Shown here in pieces: positions 18,199 through 45,985 of a DNA stretch of 64,000 nucleotides (position 1 is its first letter; every line of letters starts with the position of its first letter). The stretch comes from Deroplatys truncata. Lineage: Eukaryota > Arthropoda > Insecta > Mantodea > Mantidae. The stretch lies in the NCBI GenBank assembly GCA_030765065.1, contig CM060975.1:165326993-165390992 (forward strand), read 5' to 3'. A program made the translations under genes and the position numbers. The notes beneath the pieces are model-generated. The model was not told the DNA's origin and did not search any database. It saw nothing but the letters and a program-made list of their open reading frames with translations.

Positions 18199-18204
18199 AA
18201 TATT
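18199..18204. repeat. 6-bp target-site duplication AATATT, left
   Basis: AATATT lies directly outside the first AG of the palindromic element and recurs directly outside the terminal CT at 35861-35866. Polintons make 6-bp duplications. AATATT is its own reverse complement, so these six bases could equally be an extension of the inverted repeat. The next base outward differs on the two sides. Confidence 0.7.
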
Positions 18205-18242
18205 AGTAGGGTATAAAGGACAGATCTGGCGCAGCTTTTTGC

Positions 18243-19170
18243 GTTTATATGGGGAAAGATAGGGAAAACGAGGGTATATGCGGAGGTTCACGGAGGAAAA
18301 TGCGTTTATATGGGGAAGATAGGGACTACGAGGATCGATGCTAGGCCAAGTCATGGGTTGAAGGACTGGGGATGTGTTTTATATGAGAGATACGGGGAAT
18401 ACGAGGAGAAGTGTTGGACTAGATAGGGGTTGAGATATGGAATATGCATTTATATGGGAAAGATAAGGAAAACGTGAACAGAGGCTAGGATAGACAGGTG
18501 CTGAAGCAGGGGGAATATGAACATATTTACAGGAGAGATAGGGGATACGTGGAGAGGTACTAGACTATTCAGGGTTTGAAGGGTAGAGTATGACTTTTTA
18601 TATGAAGAGACGAGGAAAACGAGGGTATATGCTAGGTTGAGAGAACCTTCAAGGAGGGAAAAATGCGCTTATATGGGAAAGGATAGGGAAAACGAGGGTA
18701 GATGCGACAGTTCAAGGAGGAAAATGCGTTTATAGGGGAGAGATAGGGAATACGAGGGCTGATGCTAGGCTAGTCAGATGCTAAAGGAGGGAGGGATACG
18801 CTTTATACGAGAGAGATAGGGAATACAAGGAAAGATGTTATACTAAACAGGACTTGAAGGGTAGAATATGGTGTTTTATATGAGCGAGATAGTGAACCGA
18901 GGAGAGGTATTAGGCTAGGAGTTTTGAATGATAGAGTAGGCGTTTATATGCGAGAGATAGGGAATACGAGGGTCGATGCTAGGCTAGACAGGGTTGAAGT
19001 AGGGAATGCGTCTTATATGAGAGAGGTAGGGGAATATGAGGAGAGGTCCTAGTCTAGACGTGTCGAGGAGCAGAGTATACGTTTATATGGGAGAAATATG
19101 GAAAACGGTAGAGATACAAGGATAAGCAGGGGTTGAAGGAGGAGGAATGTAGGTTTATACGGTAATATAG
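18243..19170. repeat. Subterminal ~70-bp tandem repeats, left end
   Basis: About 14 imperfect units of 61-75 bp. Each starts near TTTATATGGGAGAGATAGGG, continues with an AAACGAGG/ATACGAGG block and a variable tail (often GCTAGGCTAGACAGG and GTTGAAGGAGGG), and ends AATGCG. Such subterminal repeats are known in Polinton inverted repeats. They could bind replication or integration proteins. The spacers are not unique sequence of constant length, so this is not a CRISPR array. Confidence 0.9.
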
Positions 19171-19380
19171 GAGTAATTCGATTATAAAACTTTTATCGTC
19201 CAACGTTACAACACTTTTATATACTTTTTCTAAACCTTACAAACTTTTTATATGTTAAACATTAGCGCGCGAGGCGGCGAGGGACAAACTGTATATCGGT
19301 TTACAGTGAAGTATACGTCCTAACCTATGCCCACCTTGTATGTTCTGCATCTTCTCATTGTCTATTCATTCCTAACATAA

Positions 19381-19590
19381 TCACGTAACAGACGTAACCA
19401 ACAAACGTAACCACGTAACAAGACGTAACATAACGGTACGACAAGACGTCATACTAAGCAACATAAGCACGTAACCACGCAACATCACGTGACATCTCGT
19501 AACCAGAAACGTTACACGACGTAACAACACGTAGCAACTATGTAACCAAGTAACAAAACGTAAGAACAACACGTAACCAATCCATTGCTA
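19381..19590. promoter_or_regulatory. Cluster of ACGTAAC motifs, left arm
   Basis: Within ~210 bp the core ACGTAA (TTACGT on the other strand) occurs at least nine times, with further one-mismatch copies at irregular 10-25-bp spacing. It lies between the polymerase poly(A) region and the terminal repeats and is mirrored at 34475-34684. Dense short-motif clusters often serve as enhancers or replication origins. The role here is inference. Confidence 0.7.
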
Positions 19591-19823
19591 AGGCGATCTA
19601 AACTAATTCATCCTTCATAACTTAAGACAATAAGTACGAGAACCTAGCCTAGATTAACCCGGCCAATCCTAAACGTTCCTCTCATCATCCTTTCTAGTCA
19701 GGCATCGACTAACCTAATCTGGCTAACCAAAGATAACCTCAACTTTCTTTTAGTGAAATTGCGATGTTTTATTCAGGTTTTATTATTCGAGAGTTTTAAT
19801 TGAAAAGTTTACGCCAACATACC

Positions 19824-19829
19824 TTTATT
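19824..19829 (-). terminator. Polyadenylation signal for left polymerase gene
   Basis: AATAAA on the minus strand, about 205 bases past the stop codon. Two further AATAAA copies lie just beyond (near 19768-19784). The mirror site is at 34236-34241. Confidence 0.6.
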
Positions 19830-20033
19830 TTAGTTCCTTGTAGATGTCTCTCCCCTTTTATCTAGGCTTGAGACTAGCACTAGGATTACTCCTAATGGCA
19901 GGGTTACCACCTTCCCTTCCATCTTCTTCTTTCTTCATCAGGCGTCAGCTATCTGCATATACAGCACACAGATAACCTTCTTTTTTAAGATTGTAGACTC
20001 ACGAGAAACTCTTTATCTTTAACTTACATTCTT

Positions 20034-23000
20034 TTAAGCACTGTTTGTAATGGCGTAATGTCCATATGCATATGTCGTTATCCCATCCTCAGCAATAATT
20101 CTTTTATCATCAAACGGAGTCAATGCAATTTTATTCACTTGCACTGTAGCAAGAGCATGCTTTCGTGATAGGATCAGATTCATAGGTGTTCTGATGATTT
20201 CACAGGTTTTAAGACAGTCTGTATAGCTGTCAAACGAAATATGGTGCTTAATAGCGCTACGTTTTATACCTTTAATCTTTTTTATCATTGACCCTTGAAT
20301 ATCTAAGGCATACATCTTAGGACGTAGTCCAACAAAGCGTAGGATGATTTTGCTATTAGCCTCATCTTTAAATTTTCCCAATACCTTCTTGTTCTGAGTA
20401 GAGTAACATATATGGTTGACAGGGTAATCAGCTGTATCGAGATGCTCAAGAAAACGTAACTTGTCCTGGTACACATCTTCAGTTGTAACACGATGAATGA
20501 ACGAATCAGTGTCCATATACATAAGCTTCAGGTTTTCAGCTCCATAATAAGGTAACAAAACGTCGTAATGATAGTTATACATTAATGTCTTGGAGATGTC
20601 CAACACACTCATACCAATGTATATAGGCTTGTTGAATACAATCTGTCGGGAGGCCATATGTACTGCAGCTAGATTATCAGCATATATCGTCCTGTCGATA
20701 AACGTTGGCTTAGCAATTAACTTTTCCAGAGTCTCCTCATTTGTCACCAGTCGTATATCCATACGGTTACGCAGGTTCTCCATAGTTTTTCCGAACATAG
20801 CATTGTTGAACAATTTGTAGAGATCCTTCTCAAAATCATTTCCAGCTTGTTGTCGTAGTCTGTTGTTAAATTCTACATACGGTTTTAACCATCGAGACTG
20901 TTGGAATTGTAGCACACGATGGATTTTTGTTAACCGTAGTCCATGATCAAGAGCTTGCTTCAAAGCCTTGTAATGCACTACATACTTCTTTCGAGGTCCT
21001 AGATGAGGTATCAGTTTCTTTGTAGATGCTTCCAATGGTTTCATACACTCTGGCAGGAAAGGTAGATCGTTGTGTAGATCGTGAAGTTCTGCAGGATACT
21101 CGATGTCGACTTCTAATATGTAGCCGTAAGGATCATCTTCTTGTAGTCTTTCTAAGTCAATTTTTTCAGGCGATACCCACTCAAATCCACCATAAGGGAG
21201 AGCGTGACACATTGCCCACCCATATTGGTTATTAGCGTCGTCATATGTGATAAATTGGGTTGGTCTCGACGGATCAAACTTCTCCATATATGTGTTATTA
21301 GCCTCTGCATAGCGGTGGGAAACTTGACATAAACCTCCTCTTATACCAGATTCCACCATGAGTAATTGATCATAATCCTGTAACAGTTCCAGCTTAATTC
21401 CAGTGTACAGTAACATAGCGTCCCATGTAAGACCTGGAGAGGTAAAATAATGTGCAGGATCAACTTTGTGTGTTTTGAGGGTTTGCTCTCTGAACGTCTC
21501 AAAGACATCAGCTAGGAGAAGTACATCCGAAGTTAAGTAGAGATCGCTGTACTCTCCCAGGTTTCTCACATTAAACAGCTCCCATACATTTTTAGCATGA
21601 TCGTAGTCAGCACCACTAATTTCTTCTTCATTTAATCTATTGTAGAAGGAGTCCTTAGGAGGTAAGCAGGTTTCGTTCAGGGCATCCCATGATGTAACAA
21701 AATCATATGGAAATACACCCTTACGGGTCATCAACTTCAATTTGTCTTCTCCAAAGTACTTTAGCGTTTCAGGATACGAGGTTAGATTTTTCACCAACTT
21801 ATCCAAGCTTGTACTGAGGAATCGGAAGCTATCCACAAATCGAAGCTTTATATCTCCTACATACTTGGTGAATGAGATATAGCTTTCTTCGGAGTTAGGA
21901 ATTACCTCCACACGTTCACTTGTGCAACCCAGCTCCTTAACAATGAAATGAGAGTCATATCCGCTAAGGTTATGCATGAAGACTGGTACATATTTAGGTG
22001 TTTTACAGGCTAAATTACATTCATTATGAAGACTTCCACGATATTCACCGCTGATGTGATCATGGTCGCGTACTTTATAGTTCTCTTCTGTAAAGGGTTT
22101 TCCACACAAGTAGCATGCTGAAGAAGACTCAAAATCCAACTGCTCTTGATCCGTAAGTTTCAGAGGCTTAGCAGATTTGTATATGTCCTCAATCATTTTT
22201 GCAAGAGATGTCAGGTACAGCATAAACTTCTGAGCAGCATCAGCACCACGATACACATAGGGTTGCTTAGGAAGACCAGTTTCGAGATGTTCAACACCAG
22301 ATGTAGGCTTCACGTAAACACAGAAGCTCATTGGTGTGTGCTCTTGATAAGGGATTGTATAGGAAGTTTCAGGATTGGGTATACACGTATGGCATGGAGT
22401 GAGAATACTCTCAAAATCAGCATAGATGACATAAGGTACTTTCAGCATCCTCTCAACATTTTTAAACTGTACAATTGCTTTCTCCTTTGTAGGCATAACT
22501 ACCCTTGCAACACCATGCTGATTACAGATGGTTGCATGTTCTTGTAGTTTTTCCAGTCCACTTCGTCCATTTCGATTATCAAAATGTGTAAAGCAACGCT
22601 TGCAGGTATATATCACTCCATCATGCTTAGTTTTCTGGCGTCGAACGAGCTTCTCAAAATTCTTTATATACACGTAGTGATGTTTTCCACTACTGTCATT
22701 CAATAGTAGCAGGTCGCGATGTTCAGGTAGTTCAATATCAACAACCTTTATCGGGTACAATTCATGCTTCTCATCCAACCCGAAAACGTTAATAGATATC
22801 TTGTTAAGCTTCTCAAATTTAGGTATTTGAGAAAGTGGAGTAGGGTAAGAAACGCAGCTGAAGTCGTACTTATCTTGAAGCTGCTTGTATTTGCTCACAC
22901 GTTGCGCATCCTTCTCAACGAATTTGGCCAATACAGAATACATGTAGCATTTCTCATCACTAAAGTTCTGAATGTTTATACACACTTTCCTTGCTTCAAC

Positions 23001-23687
23001 AGATGACGGTAGTGGTATGTAGCTACTTCCTCGCAACGGGTTGTACTTGTTGATACGAAGTCGAACTCCTTCCACAGTAAGCAAGGCCCAGCTGCTACCC
23101 TTAAGCTGAGAGTCCCCCATTTCAGTCACCAATTTCTTGAATTTCACTTCCAGCATAGAGTCCAGATCTGTTTCTAGGAAAACAGCTTGATTTCTGGTTT
23201 TAAATGTTTTGTCACAGGTTTCACCAATACTGTTAACAAATCGACACTCAGCCAGCAGATTAATTTTAACACTCTTATGAACGCTAAGCTCTTTATGCAC
23301 AGCCTGGATTATACGTTGTTTTGCCTCTTGCAGATACATATTTAGGTCCTTAGCTGATTCGCATCGTATAAAATACGATTTCAATCGTCCTTCGAATGAA
23401 GTTTCGTATTCTTTCATATCACAGTCCTCCATTGTTGACAGTAACTGATGTTTAGTTGGCTCCAATCTTCTTTTCTTCTGAGGGCTGCTTATTTCACATA
23501 TATCTTCGTGTCGCTGTCCCTTATAACCATCTTTGAAGGTTACATTACAATGTTTACATTTGAAGAGCTTCTTGCAGCTCATCTCGTGTCTTCTCTTGTC
23601 ATAACCTCGGAGGAACTTCTTCCCACATTTTCCGCATGCATATCCAGTAGCGCTTGGAATAATATCCTTATACGCTGAGTTATTCAT
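20034..23687 (-). CDS. Protein-primed family B DNA polymerase, left copy (intact)
   Basis: 1,217 residues. Family role: replicates the element's linear DNA from a terminal protein primer. Domains seen in order: two C2HC zinc fingers (C18/C21/H34/C38; C44/C47/H60/C64); a basic patch near 71-74; a region with C247 and H336/H337 that might be a Cys-His catalytic pair (speculative); a third zinc knuckle (C362/C365/H384/C388); Exo I D424/E426; an endonuclease VII/HNH-like insert (C525/C528, DHDH 541-544, H554, C557); Exo II Y577-D578; Exo III Y717-D721; motif A D817; motif B K958..NNAMFG 961-966; motif C D1059-T-D1061; KxY K1124-Y1126. All core catalytic residues are present. The start is the first ATG after a TATA box 150 bp upstream. 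It is read outward, towards the left terminus, without introns. The first ~400 residues could include a terminal-protein-like part, by analogy only. Confidence 0.93.
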   Translation of the reverse strand: MNNSAYKDIIPSATGYACGKCGKKFLRGYDKRRHEMSCKKLFKCKHCNVTFKDGYKGQRHEDICEISSPQKKRRLEPTKHQLLSTMEDCDMKEYETSFEGRLKSYFIRCESAKDLNMYLQEAKQRIIQAVHKELSVHKSVKINLLAECRFVNSIGETCDKTFKTRNQAVFLETDLDSMLEVKFKKLVTEMGDSQLKGSSWALLTVEGVRLRINKYNPLRGSSYIPLPSSVEARKVCINIQNFSDEKCYMYSVLAKFVEKDAQRVSKYKQLQDKYDFSCVSYPTPLSQIPKFEKLNKISINVFGLDEKHELYPIKVVDIELPEHRDLLLLNDSSGKHHYVYIKNFEKLVRRQKTKHDGVIYTCKRCFTHFDNRNGRSGLEKLQEHATICNQHGVARVVMPTKEKAIVQFKNVERMLKVPYVIYADFESILTPCHTCIPNPETSYTIPYQEHTPMSFCVYVKPTSGVEHLETGLPKQPYVYRGADAAQKFMLYLTSLAKMIEDIYKSAKPLKLTDQEQLDFESSSACYLCGKPFTEENYKVRDHDHISGEYRGSLHNECNLACKTPKYVPVFMHNLSGYDSHFIVKELGCTSERVEVIPNSEESYISFTKYVGDIKLRFVDSFRFLSTSLDKLVKNLTSYPETLKYFGEDKLKLMTRKGVFPYDFVTSWDALNETCLPPKDSFYNRLNEEEISGADYDHAKNVWELFNVRNLGEYSDLYLTSDVLLLADVFETFREQTLKTHKVDPAHYFTSPGLTWDAMLLYTGIKLELLQDYDQLLMVESGIRGGLCQVSHRYAEANNTYMEKFDPSRPTQFITYDDANNQYGWAMCHALPYGGFEWVSPEKIDLERLQEDDPYGYILEVDIEYPAELHDLHNDLPFLPECMKPLEASTKKLIPHLGPRKKYVVHYKALKQALDHGLRLTKIHRVLQFQQSRWLKPYVEFNNRLRQQAGNDFEKDLYKLFNNAMFGKTMENLRNRMDIRLVTNEETLEKLIAKPTFIDRTIYADNLAAVHMASRQIVFNKPIYIGMSVLDISKTLMYNYHYDVLLPYYGAENLKLMYMDTDSFIHRVTTEDVYQDKLRFLEHLDTADYPVNHICYSTQNKKVLGKFKDEANSKIILRFVGLRPKMYALDIQGSMIKKIKGIKRSAIKHHISFDSYTDCLKTCEIIRTPMNLILSRKHALATVQVNKIALTPFDDKRIIAEDGITTYAYGHYAITNSA

Positions 23688-23837
23688 CTTTATTCTTGAT
23701 GTAATAACGTATTAATCACTGATCAATGAAATGTACGCCTTGACACCACTTTAGAAAGCTGATTATTCTTGGAGAGAACACGATGTTAACACCTCAGAGA
23801 TGATCAACAGAATGAATTTCAATACTCAAGTTCGCTC

Positions 23838-23845
23838 TATTTATA
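23838..23845 (-). promoter_or_regulatory. TATA box of left polymerase gene
   Basis: TATAAATA on the minus strand, 151-158 bases upstream of the start codon. A pyrimidine/AATTCATTC initiator-like stretch lies about 30 bases downstream. It is mirrored at 30190-30197. Confidence 0.65.
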
Positions 23846-24128
23846 GAGAAAGCACGAACCTTTTTTAATCAATTATATCCTGATTATTAATACTAAAAAC
23901 GGTGATGAAGCGTGTAAGCTCTTATATATTTCAATTCGTGTTACACTGATGTTCGAGCGTCTCCGTATAGCTTCGTATGTTTAGAGAGAAAGTGTAAAGT
24001 ATTGCGAAGATGTTATGTATTGTTCGGCTATAATCGTACAGATTCGGAGAGCTTGACTGGTGAAGGTGATGAACGATCCGTCAACCGAGCAGGAGGCAAG
24101 CAGCCCCAGTCTAGAGACAGGATGTTTA

Positions 24129-24136
24129 TGACGTCA
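24129..24136. promoter_or_regulatory. CRE-like palindrome TGACGTCA, left arm (proximal)
   Basis: A perfect 8-bp CREB/ATF-type site between two direct repeats of the AGAGACAGGATGT type, about 290 bp upstream of the polymerase TATA box. Mirror at 29899-29906. Function is inferred. Confidence 0.5.
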
Positions 24137-24489
24137 CACCCAGAGACAGGATGTCTGCCAGTATCAAACACGTTTAAACTCGTCTCGTAACTACCTGTAT
24201 ATGCTGTCACATCAACAAGAGAAGTATTCCCACACGCTCATTCAGTCAGATGTTACATTCAAAGCCTACCACCACCCATTACACCGAAGCTAGCACAATC
24301 TCAAAAGCTTAAAAGGTCACGTAGAAGATTTTCCCCCTTACTTACTTAAATGTGTGTATATACTACATTATTTCATGTTTTCATTCCCTTTTCAATTCTT
24401 CCTTTCCATCTTGTTCTAGAAAGACCATTACATTTCACTACAATCATGAGAAAAGCAATTTTTCCAGAGTTACAGAGATTCTAAGCTTC

Positions 24490-24935
24490 TAGAATCGAAC
24501 TCGGTAATACTTTTAATAAATGGGTTTTAGTAATTTAGCTTCCCCGCATCAGCATCTACCATTTAATCTTTACTCGAACCTGATAGGATTCATAGGCTTG
24601 AAGATATATGAAATCACCCCTTCGGGATTCGATCTGAGTACTTTAAAGTAGTTATCGTCATAATAACGATATTTAGGAACTAGGTACTCTGTTTACGTTT
24701 ACCTTGACATGTCTATCTAAATTAAATTACGAGTTATTAAATGTTTACAAGTAAATTTCATTAAATCGGTATTCGAACCCAGAACACCAGGAACAAAATA
24801 ATTTATAATATTAGCTTGACATGTTAAACAAAGCTGTATGCAGTTACATCATCGATCTAAGCGATATATTCTAGTGTACAGAGGAAAATTAAGGAAGTCA
24901 TTAAAAAATCGGGATTCGAACTAGAGACAACTGAT
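24490..24935. repeat. Array of four TTCGA (B-box-like) motifs, left arm
   Basis: Four occurrences of a GGGATTCGAAC-like motif near 24,492, 24,623, 24,773 and 24,908, spaced about 120-150 bp apart. Two share a preceding AAATCGG. They resemble pol III B boxes in the opposite orientation, but the arms around the loop do not pair as T-stems, so tRNA genes are not supported. Mirrored at about 29100-29545. Confidence 0.55.
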
Positions 24936-24994
24936 ACAGTAAAAACAGACCTCATTAGTACTCATCATGCTTAAGCATGTTAACTTTCACCATA

Positions 24995-25002
24995 TGACGT
25001 CA
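24995..25002. promoter_or_regulatory. CRE-like palindrome TGACGTCA, left arm (distal)
   Basis: A second perfect TGACGTCA, mirrored at 29033-29040. Confidence 0.45.
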
Positions 25003-25079
25003 CAGTCGGGGACAGTTTGACTATCGCAGCCATGTCAGGAAATGCATATTTTAGTCATCTCATATTTTAGAGTCATATA

Positions 25080-25450
25080 CAGAAACCAGGCAAAACCATG
25101 AAAAATATGTCAGAGTGAACAACCATCGACAATCGAACGAGGGAAACCATCAGATTACTCTAGGAGCATAAAGTGCAACTGAAAGAAAATCGTGATAGCT
25201 GAGAAACCACTCCAGCATTCGCGTGCAGACCAGGGGAAACTATGAAAAAATCAAAGGGCCGGGCGAGTGGCTGATAGAGTGTGCGACCAACAGGAAATCA
25301 AGCAAAAGGTCTCTAGAGACAAAAAAGATGCAATTGAAATGGAATCATGATAGCAAATGCCGCTACAGCATTAGGTAGCAGACCGGCGAAAATCATGAGA
25401 AACGTAAGGTCAGAGTAAACAATTGATTGAAATCTAACCCCTGAACCCTA
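25080..25450. repeat. Degenerate ~150-bp tandem repeats, left arm
   Basis: Three partial units begin near 25,080, 25,226 and 25,380. They share GCAGACCAGG.GAAA..ATGA, GTCAGAGTGAACAA, AAAGTGCAACTGAA and ATCGTGATAGC blocks. Mirrored at about 28585-28955. No coding capacity. Confidence 0.6.
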
Positions 25451-25479
25451 GAAATTCACGACAACTGAAAAACGAAACC

Positions 25480-26430
25480 CAGATGTAGAGGAAATTTTGT
25501 ACACCCTTGACGAAAAAACCCCGTCCGCTGGGGAAGTAACCTTTAAGTATAAAATTGACGTCGGTCATACCGATAAGGGACGGTTTGAAAGGCTTCCTAA
25601 TTGCTCTACGCAAGTCACCTGAGCAAACACAGGAAATTCCTAAACCAGACAATTACAAGCCTGCTAAAACATTTTTTCCTACAATAAGTAATTTAAATTC
25701 TACATGAAGATTATTCCAAAAAGTTTCATATCTCTTATTTCCTTCAATAAAATATCGAATATGACTCTAGCACCAGGGAAAAAAATTAAACGGAGGGAAG
25801 CGATATTTTCTTTTTACGCTGAAATTATAATTAAATGCATAGCGTTCTTGCATGAAAACACTGCCCATATAGATTATAGGAATGGACTCTGTTTAAAACA
25901 TGTATTTTTTCACGCGTAGTGTATAGATTGTCTCAGTAAGCATTCGTGACTATTACAATTATCGCCAAGTATTATTTTACAAAAAGATCGGCTTATTCTC
26001 TTAGTAAACATAGGTTGAAATCGTTTTTAAACAACTCTCCATTCGAGAGATATTTTTTGATTATTCCAGCAGAGAGAGAGAGAGAGAGAGAGAGAGATCG
26101 AGCCATATTTGTTTAAAAAAGCTTTTTTTTCATTCGCAGGAAATCTTCGAGAAAATTCGAGGAATTATTCAGTTGTACACCCTTGCTAAAATAGTTTGTA
26201 TACCCTTTGAAGAATGTTTACCTGGTTGGCAGAGTCTACCTCTGTCGACAGGCTGTCGCCCGCATGGCATCTTGGGCATTTATACATTAGGGAGACTATT
26301 GTGCTTTAAAATGGGATAGCTATGTTTTAAGCTTTCCACAACAAATTTTTTCCCGATAATTAATATAATTCTACATGAAGAATATTAATGATTTAAGTTT
26401 TCAATTAAACGTATACTGTATAGATTCTGT
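25480..26430. repeat. Degenerate ~675-bp duplication inside left arm
   Basis: TTGTACACCCTT occurs at 25497 and 26173, and ATTCTACATGAAGA at 25697 and 26368, with weaker matches between. The two diverged units have an offset of 671-676 bp. The second lacks internal sequence. The same pair exists mirrored in the right arm. Confidence 0.55.
26071..26097. repeat. (AG)n microsatellite, left arm
   Basis: 27 bases of AG. The mirror CT run at 27934-27964 is 31 bases, one of the few length differences between the arms. Confidence 0.95.
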
Positions 26431-26503
26431 ACTTAAACATTCGATTGTATCTTTGTCATTATTTAAATACTCGCGTACAAGAATTGCTAGCATATCAAAA
26501 ATT

Positions 26504-27527
26504 CTACTGCGTGGTGGGGGAAGAGGGGAAGTGAGGGGAAATACATACGTTTAAAGGTCTTTTTATTTGATGGTCTTTATCCAAAAAAAATTTATTATTA
26601 CCGATTATATCCTTGGATTGTAGCTCGTTATTGATTGTTGTTCCAAGTCGGGCTGGAGGACTAGGATTGAATCCAGTGACATGAATACAAATTTCATCCC
26701 CCGAATAAAATAAAAAAGTAATTAAAATAAAATGGTGAACATACGATATTACATTTATGTCAGTAACTAATTTCTTTGTTATGTATATTTGGACATCTGT
26801 CATCCTTGCGAATATTATATCTCTTAAATGAATGTATGACTAAGAAAGGTAAAAACAAAAAAACAAAAAAAATTACGTAACGAACATGCGATACGACGAC
26901 GCGTATTAACATGGCTGCGAGAACTATACGACCTCCCTGAACGAGGCTCTCAGGCCGACTGGTACGCTATCTTCAATGCAGGCGTAAATAAATCTGTTTT
27001 GTCCCCCTCCATCCTCGTAGCAGGCATCATGCGCTCCACCTAGCGGAGAGAGTCGGAAGCATGTTCAATGAAAAAGATGCCTGACGCGCCCATATTGAAT
27101 GTTTAACGTGCATGGCAGCCATATTGGGTATATGAAGACATCTATTATATGCATTAAACGCATTTATGATTTGATTTTAAAAATGGATTGCGATACATTA
27201 TATTTAAGAAGAGGGATTTAAAAATGATATATGAATATCTTTACGCTGAATACAAATAACGATGGTTTAACCTAAAAAATACAATACATTTATTAAAACA
27301 TTTTCTAATTCGATTCTACAAGCTACACATCTGAGTAAATCTGAAATCTAATTGTTCGTAATTAGAGGCAAATGCAGCGGTTTTAAAAACAAACGAACAT
27401 TAAAACGTATAAAAATGCGTATTGTACGCTGATTTTTTGACGAATGATGTACATGATTATTGAAAAAATCGCTAAATAATAGAGTATATACATGAATTTA
27501 ATTAAATAAGGGTGGAAAAACTTCTAC
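26504..27527. other. Unique 1,024-bp centre of the palindrome
   Basis: The only non-duplicated part of the element. Most is AT-rich. A purine-rich run lies near 26,511-26,540, and a markedly GC-richer core at about 26,930-27,135 contains two CCATATTG repeats 37 bp apart. No frame resembles an integrase, ATPase, protease or capsid protein. It may be the fold-back join left when one end of a larger element was copied onto itself, or a separate insertion. Confidence 0.7.
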
Positions 27528-27931
27528 AATTTTTGATATGCTAGCAATTCTTGTACGCGAGTATTTAAATAATGACAAAGATACAATCGAATGTTTAAGT
27601 ACAGAATCTATACAGTATACGTTTAATTGAAAACTTAAATCATTAATATTCTTCATGTAGAATTATATTAATTATCGGGAAAAAATTTGTTGTGGAAAGC
27701 TTAAAACATAGCTATCCCATTTTAAAGCACAATAGTCTCCCTAATGTATAAATGCCCAAGATGCCATGCGGGCGACAGCCTGTCGACAGAGGTAGACTCT
27801 GCCAACCAGGTAAACATTCTTCAAAGGGTATACAAACTATTTTAGCAAGGGTGTACAACTGAATAATTCCTCGAATTTTCTCGAAGATTTCCTGCGAATG
27901 AAAAAAAAGCTTTTTTAAACAAATATGGCTC

Positions 27932-27966
<35 letters not shown>

Positions 27967-28584
27967 TGGAATAATCAAAAAATATCTCTCGAATGGAGAG
28001 TTGTTTAAAAACGATTTCAACCTATGTTTACTAAGAGAATAAGCCGATCTTTTTGTAAAATAATACTTGGCGATAATTGTAATAGTCACGAATGCTTACT
28101 GAGACAATCTATACACCACGCGTGAAAAAATACATGTTTTAAACAGAGTCCATTCCTATAATCTATATGGGCAGTGTTTTCATGCAAGAACGCTATGCAT
28201 TTAATTATAATTTCAGCGTAAAAAGAAAATATCGCTTCCCTCCGTTTAATTTTTTTCCCTGGTGCTAGAGTCATATTCGATATTTTATTGAAGGAAATAA
28301 GAGATATGAAACTTTTTGGAATAATCTTCATGTAGAATTTAAATTACTTATTGTAGGAAAAAATGTTTTAGCAGGCTTGTAATTGTCTGGTTTAGGAATT
28401 TCCTGTGTTTGCTCAGGTGACTTGCGTAGAGCAATTAGGAAGCCTTTCAAACCGTCCCTTATCGGTATGACCGACGTCAATTGTATACTTAAAGGTTACT
28501 TCCCCAGCGGACGGGGTTTTTTCGTCAAGGGTGTACAAAATTTCCTCTACATCTGGGTTTCGTTTTTCAGTTGTCGTGAATTTC

Positions 28585-28955
28585 TAGGGTTCAGGGGTTA
28601 GATTTCAATCAATTGTTTACTCTGACCTTACGTTTCTCATGATTTTCGCCGGTCTGCTACCTAATGCTGTAGCGGCATTTGCTATCATGATTCCATTTCA
28701 ATTGCATCTTTTTTGTCTCTAGAGACCTTTTGCTTGATTTCCTGTTGGTCGCACACTCTATCAGCCACTCGCCCGGCCCTTTGATTTTTTCATAGTTTCC
28801 CCTGGTCTGCACGCGAATGCTGGAGTGGTTTCTCAGCTATCACGATTTTCTTTCAGTTGCACTTTATGCTCCTAGAGTAATCTGATGGTTTCCCTCGTTC
28901 GATTGTCGATGGTTGTTCACTCTGACATATTTTTCATGGTTTTGCCTGGTTTCTG
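28585..28955. repeat. Degenerate ~150-bp tandem repeats, right arm
   Basis: Mirror image of the repeats at 25080-25450. Confidence 0.6.
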
Positions 28956-29032
28956 TATATGACTCTAAAATATGAGATGACTAAAATATGCATTTCCTGA
29001 CATGGCTGCGATAGTCAAACTGTCCCCGACTG

Positions 29033-29040
29033 TGACGTCA
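29033..29040. promoter_or_regulatory. CRE-like palindrome TGACGTCA, right arm (distal)
   Basis: Mirror of 24995-25002. Confidence 0.45.
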
Positions 29041-29099
29041 TATGGTGAAAGTTAACATGCTTAAGCATGATGAGTACTAATGAGGTCTGTTTTTACTGT

Positions 29100-29545
29100 A
29101 TCAGTTGTCTCTAGTTCGAATCCCGATTTTTTAATGACTTCCTTAATTTTCCTCTGTACACTAGAATATATCGCTTAGATCGATGATGTAACTGCATACA
29201 GCTTTGTTTAACATGTCAAGCTAATATTATAAATTATTTTGTTCCTGGTGTTCTGGGTTCGAATACCGATTTAATGAAATTTACTTGTAAACATTTAATA
29301 ACTCGTAATTTAATTTAGATAGACATGTCAAGGTAAACGTAAACAGAGTACCTAGTTCCTAAATATCGTTATTATGACGATAACTACTTTAAAGTACTCA
29401 GATCGAATCCCGAAGGGGTGATTTCATATATCTTCAAGCCTATGAATCCTATCAGGTTCGAGTAAAGATTAAATGGTAGATGCTGATGCGGGGAAGCTAA
29501 ATTACTAAAACCCATTTATTAAAAGTATTACCGAGTTCGATTCTA
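29100..29545. repeat. Array of four TTCGA (B-box-like) motifs, right arm
   Basis: Motifs AGTTCGAATCCCGA (near 29,136), GGGTTCGAATACCGA (near 29,257), AGATCGAATCCCGA (near 29,400) and GAGTTCGATTCTAG (near 29,531). Mirror of 24490-24935. Confidence 0.55.
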
Positions 29546-29898
29546 GAAGCTTAGAATCTCTGTAACTCTGGAAAAATTGCTTTTCTCATGATTGTAGTGA
29601 AATGTAATGGTCTTTCTAGAACAAGATGGAAAGGAAGAATTGAAAAGGGAATGAAAACATGAAATAATGTAGTATATACACACATTTAAGTAAGTAAGGG
29701 GGAAAATCTTCTACGTGACCTTTTAAGCTTTTGAGATTGTGCTAGCTTCGGTGTAATGGGTGGTGGTAGGCTTTGAATGTAACATCTGACTGAATGAGCG
29801 TGTGGGAATACTTCTCTTGTTGATGTGACAGCATATACAGGTAGTTACGAGACGAGTTTAAACGTGTTTGATACTGGCAGACATCCTGTCTCTGGGTG

Positions 29899-29906
29899 TG
29901 ACGTCA
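29899..29906. promoter_or_regulatory. CRE-like palindrome TGACGTCA, right arm (proximal)
   Basis: It lies between two copies of ACATCCTGTCTCT, about 290 bp upstream of the right TATA box. Mirror of 24129-24136. Confidence 0.5.
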
Positions 29907-30189
29907 TAAACATCCTGTCTCTAGACTGGGGCTGCTTGCCTCCTGCTCGGTTGACGGATCGTTCATCACCTTCACCAGTCAAGCTCTCCGAATCTGTACG
30001 ATTATAGCCGAACAATACATAACATCTTCGCAATACTTTACACTTTCTCTCTAAACATACGAAGCTATACGGAGACGCTCGAACATCAGTGTAACACGAA
30101 TTGAAATATATAAGAGCTTACACGCTTCATCACCGTTTTTAGTATTAATAATCAGGATATAATTGATTAAAAAAGGTTCGTGCTTTCTC

Positions 30190-30197
30190 TATAAATA
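30190..30197 (+). promoter_or_regulatory. TATA box of right polymerase gene
   Basis: TATAAATA, 151-158 bases upstream of the start codon, identical to the mirrored left promoter. Transcription should therefore run outward from both arms. Confidence 0.65.
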
Positions 30198-30347
30198 GAG
30201 CGAACTTGAGTATTGAAATTCATTCTGTTGATCATCTCTGAGGTGTTAACATCGTGTTCTCTCCAAGAATAATCAGCTTTCTAAAGTGGTGTCAAGGCGT
30301 ACATTTCATTGATCAGTGATTAATACGTTATTACATCAAGAATAAAG

Positions 30348-33300
30348 ATGAATAACTCAGCGTATAAGGATATTATTCCAAGCGCTACTGGATATGCATG
30401 CGGAAAATGTGGGAAGAAGTTCCTCCGAGGTTATGACAAGAGAAGACACGAGATGAGCTGCAAGAAGCTCTTCAAATGTAAACATTGTAATGTAACCTTC
30501 AAAGATGGTTATAAGGGACAGCGACACGAAGATATATGTGAAATAAGCAGCCCTCAGAAGAAAAGAAGATTGGAGCCAACTAAACATCAGTTACTGTCAA
30601 CAATGGAGGACTGTGATATGAAAGAATACGAAACTTCATTCGAAGGACGATTGAAATCGTATTTTATACGATGCGAATCAGCTAAGGACCTAAATATGTA
30701 TCTGCAAGAGGCAAAACAACGTATAATCCAGGCTGTGCATAAAGAGCTTAGCGTTCATAAGAGTGTTAAAATTAATCTGCTGGCTGAGTGTCGATTTGTT
30801 AACAGTATTGGTGAAACCTGTGACAAAACATTTAAAACCAGAAATCAAGCTGTTTTCCTAGAAACAGATCTGGACTCTATGCTGGAAGTGAAATTCAAGA
30901 AATTGGTGACTGAAATGGGGGACTCTCAGCTTAAGGGTAGCAGCTGGGCCTTGCTTACTGTGGAAGGAGTTCGACTTCGTATCAACAAGTACAACCCGTT
31001 GCGAGGAAGTAGCTACATACCACTACCGTCATCTGTTGAAGCAAGGAAAGTGTGTATAAACATTCAGAACTTTAGTGATGAGAAATGCTACATGTATTCT
31101 GTATTGGCCAAATTCGTTGAGAAGGATGCGCAACGTGTGAGCAAATACAAGCAGCTTCAAGATAAGTACGACTTCAGCTGCGTTTCTTACCCTACTCCAC
31201 TTTCTCAAATACCTAAATTTGAGAAGCTTAACAAGATATCTATTAACGTTTTCGGGTTGGATGAGAAGCATGAATTGTACCCGATAAAGGTTGTTGATAT
31301 TGAACTACCTGAACATCGCGACCTGCTACTATTGAATGACAGTAGTGGAAAACATCACTACGTGTATATAAAGAATTTTGAGAAGCTCGTTCGACGCCAG
31401 AAAACTAAGCATGATGGAGTGATATATACCTGCAAGCGTTGCTTTACACATTTTGATAATCGAAATGGACGAAGTGGACTGGAAAAACTACAAGAACATG
31501 CAACCATCTGTAATCAGCATGGTGTTGCAAGGGTAGTTATGCCTACAAAGGAGAAAGCAATTGTACAGTTTAAAAATGTTGAGAGGATGCTGAAAGTACC
31601 TTATGTCATCTATGCTGATTTTGAGAGTATTCTCACTCCATGCCATACGTGTATACCCAATCCTGAAACTTCCTATACAATCCCTTATCAAGAGCACACA
31701 CCAATGAGCTTCTGTGTTTACGTGAAGCCTACATCTGGTGTTGAACATCTCGAAACTGGTCTTCCTAAGCAACCCTATGTGTATCGTGGTGCTGATGCTG
31801 CTCAGAAGTTTATGCTGTACCTGACATCTCTTGCAAAAATGATTGAGGACATATACAAATCTGCTAAGCCTCTGAAACTTACGGATCAAGAGCAGTTGGA
31901 TTTTGAGTCTTCTTCAGCATGCTACTTGTGTGGAAAACCCTTTACAGAAGAGAACTATAAAGTACGCGACCATGATCACATCAGCGGTGAATATCGTGGA
32001 AGTCTTCATAATGAATGTAATTTAGCCTGTAAAACACCTAAATATGTACCAGTCTTCATGCATAACCTTAGCGGATATGACTCTCATTTCATTGTTAAGG
32101 AGCTGGGTTGCACAAGTGAACGTGTGGAGGTAATTCCTAACTCCGAAGAAAGCTATATCTCATTCACCAAGTATGTAGGAGATATAAAGCTTCGATTTGT
32201 GGATAGCTTCCGATTCCTCAGTACAAGCTTGGATAAGTTGGTGAAAAATCTAACCTCGTATCCTGAAACGCTAAAGTACTTTGGAGAAGACAAATTGAAG
32301 TTGATGACCCGTAAGGGTGTATTTCCATATGATTTTGTTACATCATGGGATGCCCTGAACGAAACCTGCTTACCTCCTAAGGACTCCTTCTACAATAGAT
32401 TAAATGAAGAAGAAATTAGTGATGCTGACTACGATCATGCTAAAAATGTATGGGAGCTGTTTAATGTGAGAAACCTGGGAGAGTACAGCGATCTCTACTT
32501 AACTTCGGATGTACTTCTCCTAGCTGATGTCTTTGAGACGTTCAGAGAGCAAACCCTCAAAACACACAAAGTTGATCCTGCACATTATTTTACCTCTCCA
32601 GGTCTTACATGGGACGCTATGTTACTGTACACTGGAATTAAGCTGGAACTGTTACAGGATTATGATCAATTACTCATGGTGGAATCTGGTATAAGAGGAG
32701 GTTTATGTCAAGTTTCCCACCGCTATGCAGAGGCTAATAACACATATATGGAGAAGTTTGATCCGTCGAGACCAACCCAATTTATCACATATGACGACGC
32801 TAATAACCAATATGGGTGGGCAATGTGTCACGCTCTCCCTTATGGTGGATTTGAGTGGGTATCGCCTGAAAAAATTGACTTAGAAAGACTACAAGAAGAT
32901 GATCCTTACGGCTACATATTAGAAGTCGACATCGAGTATCCTGCAGAACTTCACGATCTACACAACGATCTACCTTTCCTGCCAGAGTGTATGAAACCAT
33001 TGGAAGCATCTACAAAGAAACTGATACCTCATCTAGGACCTCGAAAGAAGTATGTAGTGCATTACAAGGCTTTGAAGCAAGCTCTTGATCATGGACTACG
33101 GTTAACAAAAATCCATCGTGTGCTACAATTCCAACAGTCTCGATGGTTAAAACCGTATGTAGAATTTAACAACAGACTACGACAACAAGCTGGAAATGAT
33201 TTTGAGAAGGATCTCTACAAATTGTTCAACAATGCTATGTTCAGAAAAACTATGGAGAACCTGCGTAACCGTATGGATATACGACTGGTGACAAATGAGG

Positions 33301-34031
33301 AGACTCTGGAAAAGTTAATTGCTAAGCCAACGTTTATCGACAGGACGATATATGCTGATAATCTAGCTGCAGTACATATGGCCTCCCGACAGATTGTATT
33401 CAACAAGCCTATATACATTGGTATGAGTGTGTTGGACATCTCCAAGACATTAATGTATAACTATCATTACGACGTTTTGTTACCTTATTATGGAGCTGAA
33501 AACCTGAAGCTTATGTATATGGAAGCTGAAAACCTGAAGCTTATGTATATGGACACTGATTCGTTCATTCATCGTGTTACAACTGAAGATGTGTACCAGG
33601 ACAAGTTACGTTTTCTTGAGCATCTCGATACAGCTGATTACCCTGTCAACCATATATGTTACTCTACTCAGAACAAGAAGGTATTGGGAAAATTTAAAGA
33701 TGAGGCTAATAGCAAAATCATCCTACGCTTTGTTGGACTACGTCCTAAGATGTATGCCTTAGATATTCAAGGGTCAATGATAAAAAAGATTAAAGGTATA
33801 AAACGTAGCGCTATTAAGCACCATATTTCGTTTGACAGCTATACAGACTGTCTTAAAACCTGTGAAATCATCAGAACACCTATGAATCTGATCCTATCAC
33901 GAAAGCATGCTCTTGCTACAGTGCAAGTGAATAAAATTGCATTGACTCCGTTTGATGATAAAAGAATTATTGCTGAGGATGGGATAACGACATATGCATA
34001 TGGACATTACGCCATTACAAACAGTGCTTAA
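30348..34031 (+). CDS. Protein-primed family B DNA polymerase, right copy (damaged motifs)
   Basis: 1,227 residues, same domain order as the minus-strand copy: zinc fingers, possible Cys-His module, Exo I, endonuclease VII-like DHDH insert, Exo II/III, polymerase motifs A-C and KxY. It differs by Gly692Asp, by Gly966Arg at the conserved glycine of motif B (NNAMFG becomes NNAMFR), and by a tandem 10-residue duplication (AENLKLMYME) immediately before the DTDS of motif C. The frame stays open because the DNA duplication is 30 bp. From what is known of family B polymerases, changing the motif B glycine and shifting the strand that leads into motif C would be expected to cripple nucleotide addition. 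That is inference, and the exonuclease and nuclease-like parts look unchanged. Zinc fingers and promoter are intact, so it may still be expressed. Confidence 0.9.
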   Translation: MNNSAYKDIIPSATGYACGKCGKKFLRGYDKRRHEMSCKKLFKCKHCNVTFKDGYKGQRHEDICEISSPQKKRRLEPTKHQLLSTMEDCDMKEYETSFEGRLKSYFIRCESAKDLNMYLQEAKQRIIQAVHKELSVHKSVKINLLAECRFVNSIGETCDKTFKTRNQAVFLETDLDSMLEVKFKKLVTEMGDSQLKGSSWALLTVEGVRLRINKYNPLRGSSYIPLPSSVEARKVCINIQNFSDEKCYMYSVLAKFVEKDAQRVSKYKQLQDKYDFSCVSYPTPLSQIPKFEKLNKISINVFGLDEKHELYPIKVVDIELPEHRDLLLLNDSSGKHHYVYIKNFEKLVRRQKTKHDGVIYTCKRCFTHFDNRNGRSGLEKLQEHATICNQHGVARVVMPTKEKAIVQFKNVERMLKVPYVIYADFESILTPCHTCIPNPETSYTIPYQEHTPMSFCVYVKPTSGVEHLETGLPKQPYVYRGADAAQKFMLYLTSLAKMIEDIYKSAKPLKLTDQEQLDFESSSACYLCGKPFTEENYKVRDHDHISGEYRGSLHNECNLACKTPKYVPVFMHNLSGYDSHFIVKELGCTSERVEVIPNSEESYISFTKYVGDIKLRFVDSFRFLSTSLDKLVKNLTSYPETLKYFGEDKLKLMTRKGVFPYDFVTSWDALNETCLPPKDSFYNRLNEEEISDADYDHAKNVWELFNVRNLGEYSDLYLTSDVLLLADVFETFREQTLKTHKVDPAHYFTSPGLTWDAMLLYTGIKLELLQDYDQLLMVESGIRGGLCQVSHRYAEANNTYMEKFDPSRPTQFITYDDANNQYGWAMCHALPYGGFEWVSPEKIDLERLQEDDPYGYILEVDIEYPAELHDLHNDLPFLPECMKPLEASTKKLIPHLGPRKKYVVHYKALKQALDHGLRLTKIHRVLQFQQSRWLKPYVEFNNRLRQQAGNDFEKDLYKLFNNAMFRKTMENLRNRMDIRLVTNEETLEKLIAKPTFIDRTIYADNLAAVHMASRQIVFNKPIYIGMSVLDISKTLMYNYHYDVLLPYYGAENLKLMYMEAENLKLMYMDTDSFIHRVTTEDVYQDKLRFLEHLDTADYPVNHICYSTQNKKVLGKFKDEANSKIILRFVGLRPKMYALDIQGSMIKKIKGIKRSAIKHHISFDSYTDCLKTCEIIRTPMNLILSRKHALATVQVNKIALTPFDDKRIIAEDGITTYAYGHYAITNSA
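33494..33553. repeat. 30-bp tandem duplication in right polymerase gene
   Basis: Two adjacent copies of a 30-bp unit starting AGCTGAAAACCTGAAGC. The left arm has one copy. It adds ten residues just before motif C and changes nothing in frame. Confidence 0.95.
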
Positions 34032-34235
34032 AAGAATGTAAGTTAAAGATAAAGAGTTTCTCGTGAGTCTACAATCTTAAAAAAGAAGGTTATCTGTGTG
34101 CTGTATATGCAGATAGCTGACGCCTGATGAAGAAAGAAGAAGATGGAAGGGAAGGTGGTAACCCTGCCATTAGGAGTAATCCTAGTGCTAGTCTCAAGCC
34201 TAGATAAAAGGGGAGAGACATCTACAAGGAACTAA

Positions 34236-34241
34236 AATAAA
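34236..34241 (+). terminator. Polyadenylation signal for right polymerase gene
   Basis: AATAAA about 205 bases past the stop codon, with further AATAAA at 34281-34286 and 34292-34297. Mirror of the left site. Upstream, near 34,168-34,185, the short hairpin TAGGA-GTAA-TCCTA is present in both arms. Confidence 0.6.
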
Positions 34242-34474
34242 GGTATGTTGGCGTAAACTTTTCAATTAAAACTCTCGAATAATAAAACCTGAATAAAACA
34301 TCGCAATTTCACTAAAAGAAAGTTGAGGTTATCTTTGGTTAGCCAGATTAGGTTAGTCGATGCCTGACTAGAAAGGATGATGAGAGGAACGTTTAGGATT
34401 GGCCGGGTTAATCTAGGCTAGGTTCTCGTACTTATTGTCTTAAGTTATGAAGGATGAATTAGTTTAGATCGCCT

Positions 34475-34684
34475 TAGCAATGGATTGGTTACGTGTTGTT
34501 CTTACGTTTTGTTACTTGGTTACATAGTTGCTACGTGTTGTTACGTCGTGTAACGTTTCTGGTTACGAGATGTCACGTGATGTTGCGTGGTTACGTGCTT
34601 ATGTTGCTTAGTATGACGTCTTGTCGTACCGTTATGTTACGTCTTGTTACGTGGTTACGTTTGTTGGTTACGTCTGTTACGTGA
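34475..34684. promoter_or_regulatory. Cluster of GTTACGT motifs, right arm
   Basis: At least nine exact TTACGT cores in ~210 bp. Mirror of 19381-19590. Confidence 0.7.
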
Positions 34685-34894
34685 TTATGTTAGGAATGAA
34701 TAGACAATGAGAAGATGCAGAACATACAAGGTGGGCATAGGTTAGGACGTATACTTCACTGTAAACCGATATACAGTTTGTCCCTCGCCGCCTCGCGCGC
34801 TAATGTTTAACATATAAAAAGTTTGTAAGGTTTAGAAAAAGTATATAAAAGTGTTGTAACGTTGGACGATAAAAGTTTTATAATCGAATTACTC

Positions 34895-35822
34895 CTATAT
34901 TACCGTATAAACCTACATTCCTCCTCCTTCAACCCCTGCTTATCCTTGTATCTCTACCGTTTTCCATATTTCTCCCATATAAACGTATACTCTGCTCCTC
35001 GACACGTCTAGACTAGGACCTCTCCTCATATTCCCCTACCTCTCTCATATAAGACGCATTCCCTACTTCAACCCTGTCTAGCCTAGCATCGACCCTCGTA
35101 TTCCCTATCTCTCGCATATAAACGCCTACTCTATCATTCAAAACTCCTAGCCTAATACCTCTCCTCGGTTCACTATCTCGCTCATATAAAACACCATATT
35201 CTACCCTTCAAGTCCTGTTTAGTATAACATCTTTCCTTGTATTCCCTATCTCTCTCGTATAAAGCGTATCCCTCCCTCCTTTAGCATCTGACTAGCCTAG
35301 CATCAGCCCTCGTATTCCCTATCTCTCCCCTATAAACGCGTTTTCCTCCTTGAACTGTCGCATCTACCCTCGTTTTCCCTATCCTTTCCCATATAAGCGC
35401 ATTTTTCCCTCCTTGAAGGTTCTCTCAACCTAGCATATACCCTCGTTTTCCTCGTCTCTTCATATAAAAAGTCATACTCTACCCTTCAAACCCTGAATAG
35501 TCTAGTACCTCTCCACGTATCCCCTATCTCTCCTGTAAATATGTTCATATTCCCCCTGCTTCAGCACCTGTCTATCCTAGCCTCTGTTCACGTTTTCCTT
35601 ATCTTTCCCATATAAATGCATATTCCATATCTCAACCCCTATCTAGTCCAACACTTCTCCTCGTATTCCCCGTATCTCTCATATAAAACACATCCCCAGT
35701 CCTTCAACCCATGACTTGGCCTAGCATCGATCCTCGTAGTCCCTATCTTCCCCATATAAACGCATTTTCCTCCGTGAACCTCCGCATATACCCTCGTTTT
35801 CCCTATCTTTCCCCATATAAAC
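34895..35822. repeat. Subterminal ~70-bp tandem repeats, right end
   Basis: Inverted counterpart of 18243-19170: about 14 units read as CCCTATCTCTCCCATATAAA on the plus strand. Unit order and sequence match the left end, so the whole array was copied rather than grown independently. Confidence 0.9.
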
Positions 35823-35860
35823 GCAAAAAGCTGCGCCAGATCTGTCCTTTATACCCTACT

Positions 35861-35866
35861 AATATT
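35861..35866. repeat. 6-bp target-site duplication AATATT, right
   Basis: Same six bases as 18199-18204, directly outside the terminal CT. Confidence 0.7.
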
Positions 35867-37304: not shown

Positions 37305-38395
37305 AAAAAGATTTGATGACAAGAGGACAAGAGAGGCTAGATTACAAACTGATAAGTTTGGCCATATTTCCTATGCATGGAAAATATTTATAGAACTCTG
37401 CAGGAAAGTAAAATTAATGTTACGGTGGATGAAAAACTAGTTCCATTTAGGGGCAGTGTGGATTTGTGCAATATATTGCAAATAAACCTGCAAAGTATGG
37501 AATCAAAATGTTCTGGATGTGTGAAGCCGAAAGTGGTTATGCCTTGATGGGATTATGTATGCAGGAAGAGAACTAAGTGAGCCATGCCAGAAACATTTAG
37601 GTCTTACTACAGTAAAAACCCTTGCAGTTAAATATGCTGGTACTTCTAGAAATACTACTGTAGATAATTATTTTACAAGCGTACCATTGGCAGAACAACT
37701 CTTGAGTAGAATCCTAACTGTTGTGGAAACAATGAGAACAAATAAAAGAGAAATTCCAAAAGGTATGAAGTCAAATAGAGGTATACAGGTAAATTCAAAA
37801 GTGTTCGCATTTACAAAAGAAATCAGAATGGTTAGTTTTTCGCCAAAGAAAAATAAGTGTGAAACCCTCCTAAGTACCATCTATCTATAGATGAACAACA
37901 TCCAAACTGAAGCCAGAGATTGTGACATTTTATTAGCAAACTAAGGGTGGTGAGGATGTTAAGGATAAGCTAGTGCACAGTTATACATGAAAAAGATAAA
38001 CTAAACGCTGGCGTATGGCTATCTCATGCAACATAATGGACGTATGCACTTTAAATGCCTTTATTATTGGCACAACGCATCCCACACATCACGAAGGACT
38101 TGTGCACAAGTGGAGACTTTTCATCAAAGAACTTCCAATATAATTGAACCAACCGTTTATAATAAGAAGAGCTTCTAATCCCTTTCTACAGAAATCCATA
38201 TATCTGGACATGGAGAAGTTCATTGCCATCGCTCAAACACAAAGCAGTAACAACAGTAGCGTGGATAGTCAGAAGAGAAGGTGTTCATTGTGTCCTGATT
38301 CAAAAGATAGAAAAACAAAGACAGTGTGCTGTAAGTGCACAAAACATGTGTGCAAGAACCATAGAAGTGTGTTGTGCAACAACTGTAAAAATTAA
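37305..38395 (+). pseudogene. Degenerate piggyBac-like transposase
   Basis: The family makes cut-and-paste transposases inserting at TTAA. Translated pieces line up with it in order across frames: RFDDKRTRE-like and DKFGHISYAWK near 37,310-37,385; VDEKLVPFRG near 37,422; QYIANKPAKYGIKMFW near 37,467; YAGREL..TSRNTTVDNYFTSVPLA and LTVVETMRTNKREIP at 37,555-37,890; and the C-terminal cysteine-rich domain (CSLC, CCKC, HVCKNH, LCNNC) ending at 38,395. At least three frameshifts or stops separate these blocks, so no full protein can be made. Terminal inverted repeats were not located. The family assignment is firm and the ends are not. Confidence 0.85.
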
Positions 38396-42920: not shown

Positions 42921-42961
42921 CACCACCACCACCACCACCACCACCACCACCACCACCACCT
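42921..42961. repeat. (CAC)n microsatellite
   Basis: About 13 uninterrupted CAC units, immediately before a SINE. Confidence 0.95.
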
Positions 42962-42964
42962 GTA

Positions 42965-43180
42965 GGTATGGGTGGTTTAGTTGGCTAGGTGCCGGCCTTC
43001 TGATTCCAAGGTGTCGGTTCAAACCCATTCCTGACCGATGGTTTTTAAGTGCGCTTAAATGCGACGGCCCAATTTAAGTAGATTTACTAGAATAAAGGAA
43101 CTGCGGGATGAAATTCCGGCACACCGGCAGGGCTGATATGATCCGAAAATTGAAAGTGTCGTTAACAAACAAAAAAGTAC
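42965..43180 (+). mobile_element. tRNA-derived SINE between CAC-rich repeats
   Basis: The head has an A-box-like GGTTTAGTTGGCTAGGTGCC and a B box TCGGTTCAAACCC. The body includes GCGACGGCCCAATTTAAGT and CTGCGGGATGAAATTCCGGC. CAC-type simple repeats lie on both sides, so it may have inserted into the microsatellite or carry it as a tail. Confidence 0.65.
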
Positions 43181-43189
43181 CGTCACTAT

Positions 43190-44885: not shown

Positions 44886-44924
44886 CTAAACGGTTTCTGT
44901 ATTATTTTCTGTAGGTAATCCCTA

Positions 44925-45510: not shown

Positions 45511-45985
45511 TAAAAATAAAATATAGCAGTTGAAGATCATTTTTTGTTTGTTGGTTTGTTTGTTTTTAATTGATTTTTTAGTTAGATCTCACATTATTTT
45601 GCTTTTGCAGTGGACAGGTGGTTGTAAAGTGTGTCTCATTAGGTAAGTGTTTCTTATCTAGCTACTTCAGTGTATCTTACGAAAACTATTGTTCTTAATA
45701 CCTATGCATTTCATTGACTTACTCATTTATAAATACCACTATTTTCATTATGAAGTATTTGAATAAAATAAAGAAACTATACTTTAAATGACAACATAAT
45801 ATAGCAAATACTCTGGTTCTATAAAAATAAAGAAGGTATATGTGGCTATTTGAAAAAAAATATTACATTATCTGTTTTCTAGGTAGCATGTTTTGTAACT
45901 TTATTATTCAGATGGCAGGCTTTCAATTGTATCGACCATATGTATTTTACTTCATTGTTATGTTTGTGGTTAGAGGAATAAGAGA
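45511..45985. other. AT-rich non-coding stretch, nothing recognised
   Basis: No supported gene or repeat was found. Confidence 0.5.

Follow-up and report, generated by a model that had tools for sequence, protein, structure and literature searches.

Polintons are characterized by AG...CT ends and a 6-bp target duplication, and their transposition has been modelled on protein-primed replication, for which, to our knowledge, there is little direct evidence. When linear DNA of the adenovirus type replicates by protein priming, the ends of the displaced strand can anneal to a panhandle in which the origin is rebuilt, and snap-back defective genomes are known as well. Palindromic derivatives of the linear plasmid pGKL1 also belong to this background; no account of them was found among the open PMC papers listed. 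The Polinton family B DNA polymerase (PolB) has the domain order terminal protein (TP), vOTU, exonuclease, polymerase, and cytoplasmic linear plasmids of the pGKL1 type, which have lost the morphogenetic module, encode a PolB with fused TP and vOTU (PMC11071308). Adintoviruses possess a hexon and an rve integrase with a chromodomain (PMC11071296), while Galileo combines long terminal inverted repeats, 1,575 bp in the second-longest example given, with a P-superfamily transposase (PMC4168063). The open PMC papers covered include excerpts of these three and of PMC6431247, and no description of palindromic, fold-back or hairpin Polintons was found in them. Here we describe such a palindromic element of 17,656 bp with a PolB gene in each arm. 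It occupies positions 18205-35860, with AATATT on either flank, of a 64,000-nucleotide stretch of the genome of the mantis Deroplatys truncata (assembly GCA_030765065.1, contig CM060975.1, positions 165,326,993 to 165,390,992; hereafter the window), and it belongs to a large family whose arms become equal before insertion.

The window copy comprises the following features:

18199..18204: left 6-bp target-site duplication AATATT; exact 6-bp duplications were found in 18/18 other copies examined at both ends
18205..26506: left palindrome arm, defined by alignment, beginning with AGTAGGGTATAAAGG; its outer ~1 kb consists of degenerate subterminal repeats
20034..23687, minus strand: left-arm PolB, 1,217 amino acids (aa), based on the open reading frame and on domain and motif evidence
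23688..26506: inner left arm, upstream of PolB, with no long frame; tested open reading frames gave no Pfam match
26506..26507: breakpoint of an asymmetric internal deletion, with 2-3 nt of microhomology; ~1.64 kb are missing here compared with sibling E05
26507..27524: inner 1,018-nt "centre", found inverted in both arms of siblings
27525..35860: right palindrome arm, terminating in ...CCTTTATACCCTACT
30348..34031, plus strand: right-arm PolB, 1,227 aa, based on the open reading frame, with G966R and a 10-aa duplication
35861..35866: right 6-bp target-site duplication AATATT

Flanking repeats included, the inverted copies extend over 18199-26506 (8,308 nt) and 27525-35866 (8,342 nt). Aligned end to end, the arms differ by 6 substitutions, by a 30-bp duplication carried by the right one and by 4 bp in the length of a GA run, which bears out the more than 99% matching, inverted 8.3-kb arms of a preliminary description of this locus. 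Both PolB frames point outward from the centre, one per arm, and besides them the element contains the subterminal repeats, ~2.8 kb of inner sequence and the centre. The segment between the arms had been reported as a unique centre of 1,024 bp. It is present, has 1,018 nt and is not unique: siblings hold it in both arms. Thus, the window copy is an asymmetric internal-deletion derivative that lacks, compared with E05, one inner 1,018-nt copy and a spacer of ~0.6 kb (~1.64 kb in total). AATATT adjoins the AG...CT ends at 18199-18204 and 35861-35866. Since this hexamer is itself palindromic, the window copy alone cannot separate a target duplication from a part of the inverted repeat.

As suggested in the preliminary description, the host genome (4.29 Gb, 818 contigs) was searched with termini and centre for sibling palindromes, and these were indeed obtained. 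For the centre query, 40 matches were scored, the best of 1,687 candidates, and most of them form inverted pairs separated by ~1.56 kb. Ten siblings were taken as adjacent 10-kb halves, and for three of these the outermost bases were added separately. In all ten, an arm leads into an inverted copy of the window centre, followed by a spacer and then by the same arrangement in mirror image. The spacer measures 0.57-0.62 kb in 9 of them; in E08 most of it has been lost together with part of the centre copies. Arm identity within these elements amounts to 99.36-99.93% over 9,329-9,804 alignment columns. With PolB as query, 38 of 30,489 candidates were scored, and 30 of the 38 formed 15 inverted pairs. 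Among the 8 single matches, 5 had an inverted partner at the place sampled with a 1-kb probe, 2 belonged to elements whose left PolB was cut by an internal deletion ending in the spacer, and 1 was without the left arm. Hence, both arms are at least partly present in 22 of the 23 PolB-bearing elements among the top-ranked matches listed. Five further singles came from the centre search: 3 had arm sequence on both sides, 1 was interrupted by a non-long terminal repeat (non-LTR) retrotransposon-like frame such that the right arm was not reached, and in 1 the right terminus was too near, part of the right arm being missing. A sibling centre broken by a 916-aa non-LTR retrotransposon-like frame, judged by eye, is located at C13:174.2237-174.2277 Mb (L068).

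A stepwise change in identity was seen in some siblings. At arm position ~5500-5900, the identity of L009-L014 to the window rises from ~94-95% (outer part, PolB) to ~99% (inner part). L023 and L024 show the same step less sharply and with mixed inner identity. The step sits at the same place in both arms and looks like a symmetrically copied recombination breakpoint.

An exact terminal pattern occurred 559 times in forward and 561 times in reverse orientation, with no match for the reversed control. The family therefore comprises at least ~560 copies in the host genome, a lower bound because the ends of the window copy itself deviate from the pattern by one base. From 100 listed terminus places on chromosome C1 and part of C2, 92 pair as +/-, which yields 46 elements with a median length of 17.6 kb (range 4.4-23.3 kb); 18 of them measure 17-18 kb. 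Copies examined at both ends showed, in 19/19 cases, AG...CT ends together with exact target duplications of 6 bp, both features being named in the preliminary description. Apart from AATATT of the window, these were CATATT, CATGTC, GTTATT, AACAGC, TGTGTC, GTTGCT and CACGTA in the siblings (7/7), exact 6-bp direct repeats in the flanks of 10/10 more copies, and CTCGCG in 1/1. The sibling repeats are mostly non-palindromic, which settles that they are target duplications rather than parts of the inverted repeat. The CTCGCG-flanked copy, a member of the 17-18 kb class read in three pieces, has outer 3.5-kb arms that are 99.9% identical and a core that is palindromic down to a loop of ~72 nt, counted by eye. 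The suspicion that the 17.65-kb class consists of autonomous Polintons was rejected because this copy, the one member of it read in part, is likewise palindromic.

Equality of the arms is specific to each element. Between elements, outer pieces differ by a median of 3.6% (maximum 10.0%), PolB pieces by 4.6% (maximum 6.9%) and inner pieces by 0.3-0.6%; pieces covering less than 93% of the reference were excluded (E08 in three pieces and the missing left centre of the window). Within elements, all pieces together contain 72 mismatches, of which 71 are private and 1 has both alleles in other elements. Conversely, 166 private substitutions are common to both arms of one element only. Among indels, 8 private gap runs affect both arms, and 23 gap runs are confined to one. 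E01 carries a PolB frameshift at the identical place in either arm. The partner arm was strictly the nearest relative for 18/22 halves in the outer piece, 21/22 in PolB, 15/20 and 20/20 in the remaining pieces, and 5/18 in the nearly invariant centre.

The timing of this equalization can be read from PolB. In the 22 halves, differences between the two arms comprised 24 nonsynonymous and 5 synonymous changes, as fits random mutation (p=0.52), in contrast to 42 nonsynonymous and 72 synonymous private changes found in both arms, which are strongly selected (p=1e-18; Fisher test between the two classes, p=1.5e-5). Between copies, purifying selection acts on PolB. The changes common to the two arms thus arose while PolB was in use, and the neutral arm-to-arm changes arose afterwards. 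Hence, the arms are equalized inside the mobile cycle and not mainly by later gene conversion; arm equality arises before insertion, as part of the mobile cycle.

By its motifs and by the predicted TP-like and vOTU-like folds, the polymerase is of the protein-primed type, in line with the preliminary description. In the left copy, the TP-like domain is predicted at ~99-217 and the vOTU-like domain at ~226-345, preceded by a zinc-finger-like stretch near the N-terminus (seen by eye; below the Pfam cut-off) and followed by an endonuclease VII-like insert at 516-560 (above the cut-off) and by exonuclease and polymerase motifs. A single private substitution affects codon 692. All 14 catalytic positions are kept in 26/26 PolB sequences compared. 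The presence of a whole polymerase in each arm did not hold for the window. G966R hits the invariant motif-B glycine of the right copy, and the 10-aa (30-bp) duplication lies just before motif C, so that this PolB is probably inactive, judging from its sequence. PolB of a Ladona dragonfly adintovirus (46% over 93%) was the closest virus-named relative among the 120 matches listed. A search of the PDB by sequence gave no useful match, and viral contigs with PolB relatives numbered none from a single-protein query and two from an alignment query.

No other core gene became visible, as had been stated before. A Pfam scan of 10 of the 21 listed non-PolB open reading frames (left arm and centre) gave no match, a spliced gene remaining possible, and within the same scope neither an rve-type integrase nor a P-superfamily transposase was found, although non-autonomous copies can lack the latter. 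Capsid, packaging ATPase and protease genes were not found either, no non-PolB frame of the window element being longer than 141 aa (the largest one is antisense to PolB); capsids would escape a search by Pfam only, and spliced genes may have been missed. In L073, which encodes a distant PolB relative (38% identity), rve and an A32-type ATPase accompany a single PolB, and no long inverted repeat was found in the 15.6 of 17.4 kb covered. Lacking integrase and capsid genes, the element is not a Polinton in the strict sense; its PolB, ends and duplications mark it as derived from the Polinton/adintovirus lineage. From the earlier proposal of a minimal, polymerase-only, fold-back Polinton derivative, the fold-back architecture and the family of siblings are retained, and the window copy as archetype is given up. 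That proposal came without a mechanism; comparison of the siblings supplies one, in which the arms are equalized in each cycle.

Starting from the observed palindromic unit with its AG/CT ends, 6-bp duplications, selected PolB, no other recognized gene and arms equal before insertion, we read these elements, with a probability of roughly 60%, as a palindromic, polymerase-only, high-copy family of the Polinton/adintovirus lineage that replicates as a linear, protein-primed hairpin replicon and receives its integrase in trans. The element would replicate as linear DNA, with the TP domain of PolB priming at the AGTAGG ends and strand displacement releasing a full-length single strand. This palindromic strand would fold into a single hairpin (stem ~9 kb, loop ~70 to ~600 nt), rebuilding a double-stranded origin end. 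During copying or repair of the hairpin, one arm would serve as template for the other, and each cycle would wipe out differences and restore a damaged arm. A Polinton-type rve integrase from other elements may then insert the linear product with 6-bp duplications. After insertion, the arms would diverge and the unstable hairpin tip would undergo asymmetric deletions, as presumably in the window copy. The deletions in the tip region (window, E08 and two PolB singles) fit hairpin-tip cleavage. A more far-reaching view, which we hold tentatively and at slightly less than even odds, is that of a distinct kind of eukaryotic mobile DNA. This would be a hairpin-cycling palindromic replicon whose sole gene is a self-priming polymerase, present in two copies that are genetically one, as every cycle rewrites one arm from its partner. 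The palindrome itself would have a function (origin rebuilding and correction by the other arm), the tip would carry a conserved centre motif, and related elements would supply the integrase.

Alternatively, a passive founder that was palindromized once may have been moved as a whole by canonical Polinton integrase and polymerase, its own PolB being cargo. The element has no detected integrase and its 6-bp duplications need one, and the genome does contain a Polinton-type rve with chromodomain (L070; rve E=5e-8, both by Pfam) as well as rve homologues with open frames, some of which may belong to other element types. Yet purifying selection on PolB between copies is not expected of cargo, and symmetric changes of the arms, such as the divergent subterminal repeats and the shared frameshift, need an ongoing equalizing step. 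We therefore regard this explanation as unlikely. None of 10 rve matches on C1 lay inside listed palindromic elements (150 of 5,406 candidates were scored), and a PF00770 search of the host genome was uninformative, with 0 matches and 0/14 controls recovered.

L070 is part of a degenerate canonical Polinton at C16:326.3075-326.3207 Mb (L070, L071 and L069:1-2168), in which protease-, capsid-, ATPase- and PolB-like frames were recognized by eye. Attached to it, at C16:326.32 Mb, is a family copy of the palindromic type with one arm only. This copy was considered as a non-palindromic parent and rejected; by eye, its spacer runs directly into the Polinton PolB. Neither a left terminus nor a matching duplication was found in ~13 kb to its left, and we read it as a truncated family copy.

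Long inverted repeats lying close together are good substrates for gene conversion, and ordinary conversion after insertion might keep the arms alike, as in long chromosomal palindromes. The one arm-to-arm mismatch in 72 with both alleles in other elements favors this explanation and weighs against equalization within the cycle. However, conversion in situ would carry neutral post-insertion changes to both arms, whereas the changes found in both arms are filtered by selection and those between arms are not. In addition, arm identity stops at the termini. Post-insertion conversion as the main cause is thus quite improbable.

The centre provides an independent sign of symmetry. At its borders, the sibling spacer has AGTAGAAATATAA-like sequence similar to the outer terminus, a similarity score reached in 3 of 2,000 shuffles. 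A motif, CTGATAA..TTCTTT..ATCTATGCCG in slightly looser form, occurs in 9/10 sibling spacers and is absent from the window and E08. Genome-wide it was found 1,038 + 1,007 times (control 0 + 0). On C1, 14 of 28 elements contain it, each a single time and always at 0.47-0.52 of the length; the other 14 showed none. Outside elements, 86 listed motif places on C1 comprise 44 in 22 +/- pairs 12.7-21.3 kb apart (0 -/+) and 42 single ones. There seems to be a second element family that carries the motif near its inverted ends, e.g. C1 4207295-4227251, and the palindrome spacer may be derived from it. These pairs, the motif and AGTAG-type boundaries of the palindrome centre, and the occurrence of this PolB clade in bidnaviruses, some with up to twelve segments according to the excerpt of PMC11071296, would suit a multipartite or satellite system in which the palindrome is the replicase segment only and capsid and integrase reside on a partner sharing terminal sequences. 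No recognizable gene was found in 1.2 kb of one member of the second family, the candidate partner, and we give this idea only a slim chance. A fold-back assembly artefact, of which a lone palindrome of this kind would be suspect, has a negligible probability, given that the ten loci are independent, differ in their flanks and show precise ends, target duplications and arm sequences peculiar to each element; chance becomes very unlikely as well.

Elsewhere in the window, a strong GC skew (about -0.4) with low-complexity frames was noted at 42001-46000, and putative transposase-like frames were seen by eye at 37525-37890, 56621-57121 and 60984-61565.

The genome thus holds a natural record of arms equalized before insertion, the outcome expected of a fold-back replication intermediate. 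This suggests that an element of the Polinton lineage can lose all genes except the polymerase and still reach hundreds of copies, and it offers an example, open to testing, of a large palindrome being passed on rather than destroyed. With Polintons/Mavericks the family shares the AG...CT ends, the 6-bp duplication and a PolB of the TP-vOTU-exonuclease-polymerase type. Unlike them, it has no detected rve integrase, ATPase, protease or capsid gene and carries its polymerase twice, and its arms of 8.3-9.8 kb span nearly the whole element, whereas inverted repeats of Polintons are confined to the ends. A PolB with an OTU-like domain is common to adintoviruses, but their hexon and rve integrase with chromodomain were not found here. 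Plasmids of the pGKL1 type likewise have a TP-vOTU PolB but are free, whereas the present element is integrated, palindromic and present in ~560 copies. Galileo and Foldback elements are alike in their long inverted repeats; here, a DNA polymerase lies inside the repeats. No paper on a stem of nearly whole-genome length was found in the panhandle and snap-back literature among the open PMC papers listed. The stem of the adenovirus panhandle is the short terminal repeat, whereas here it would be nearly the whole genome.
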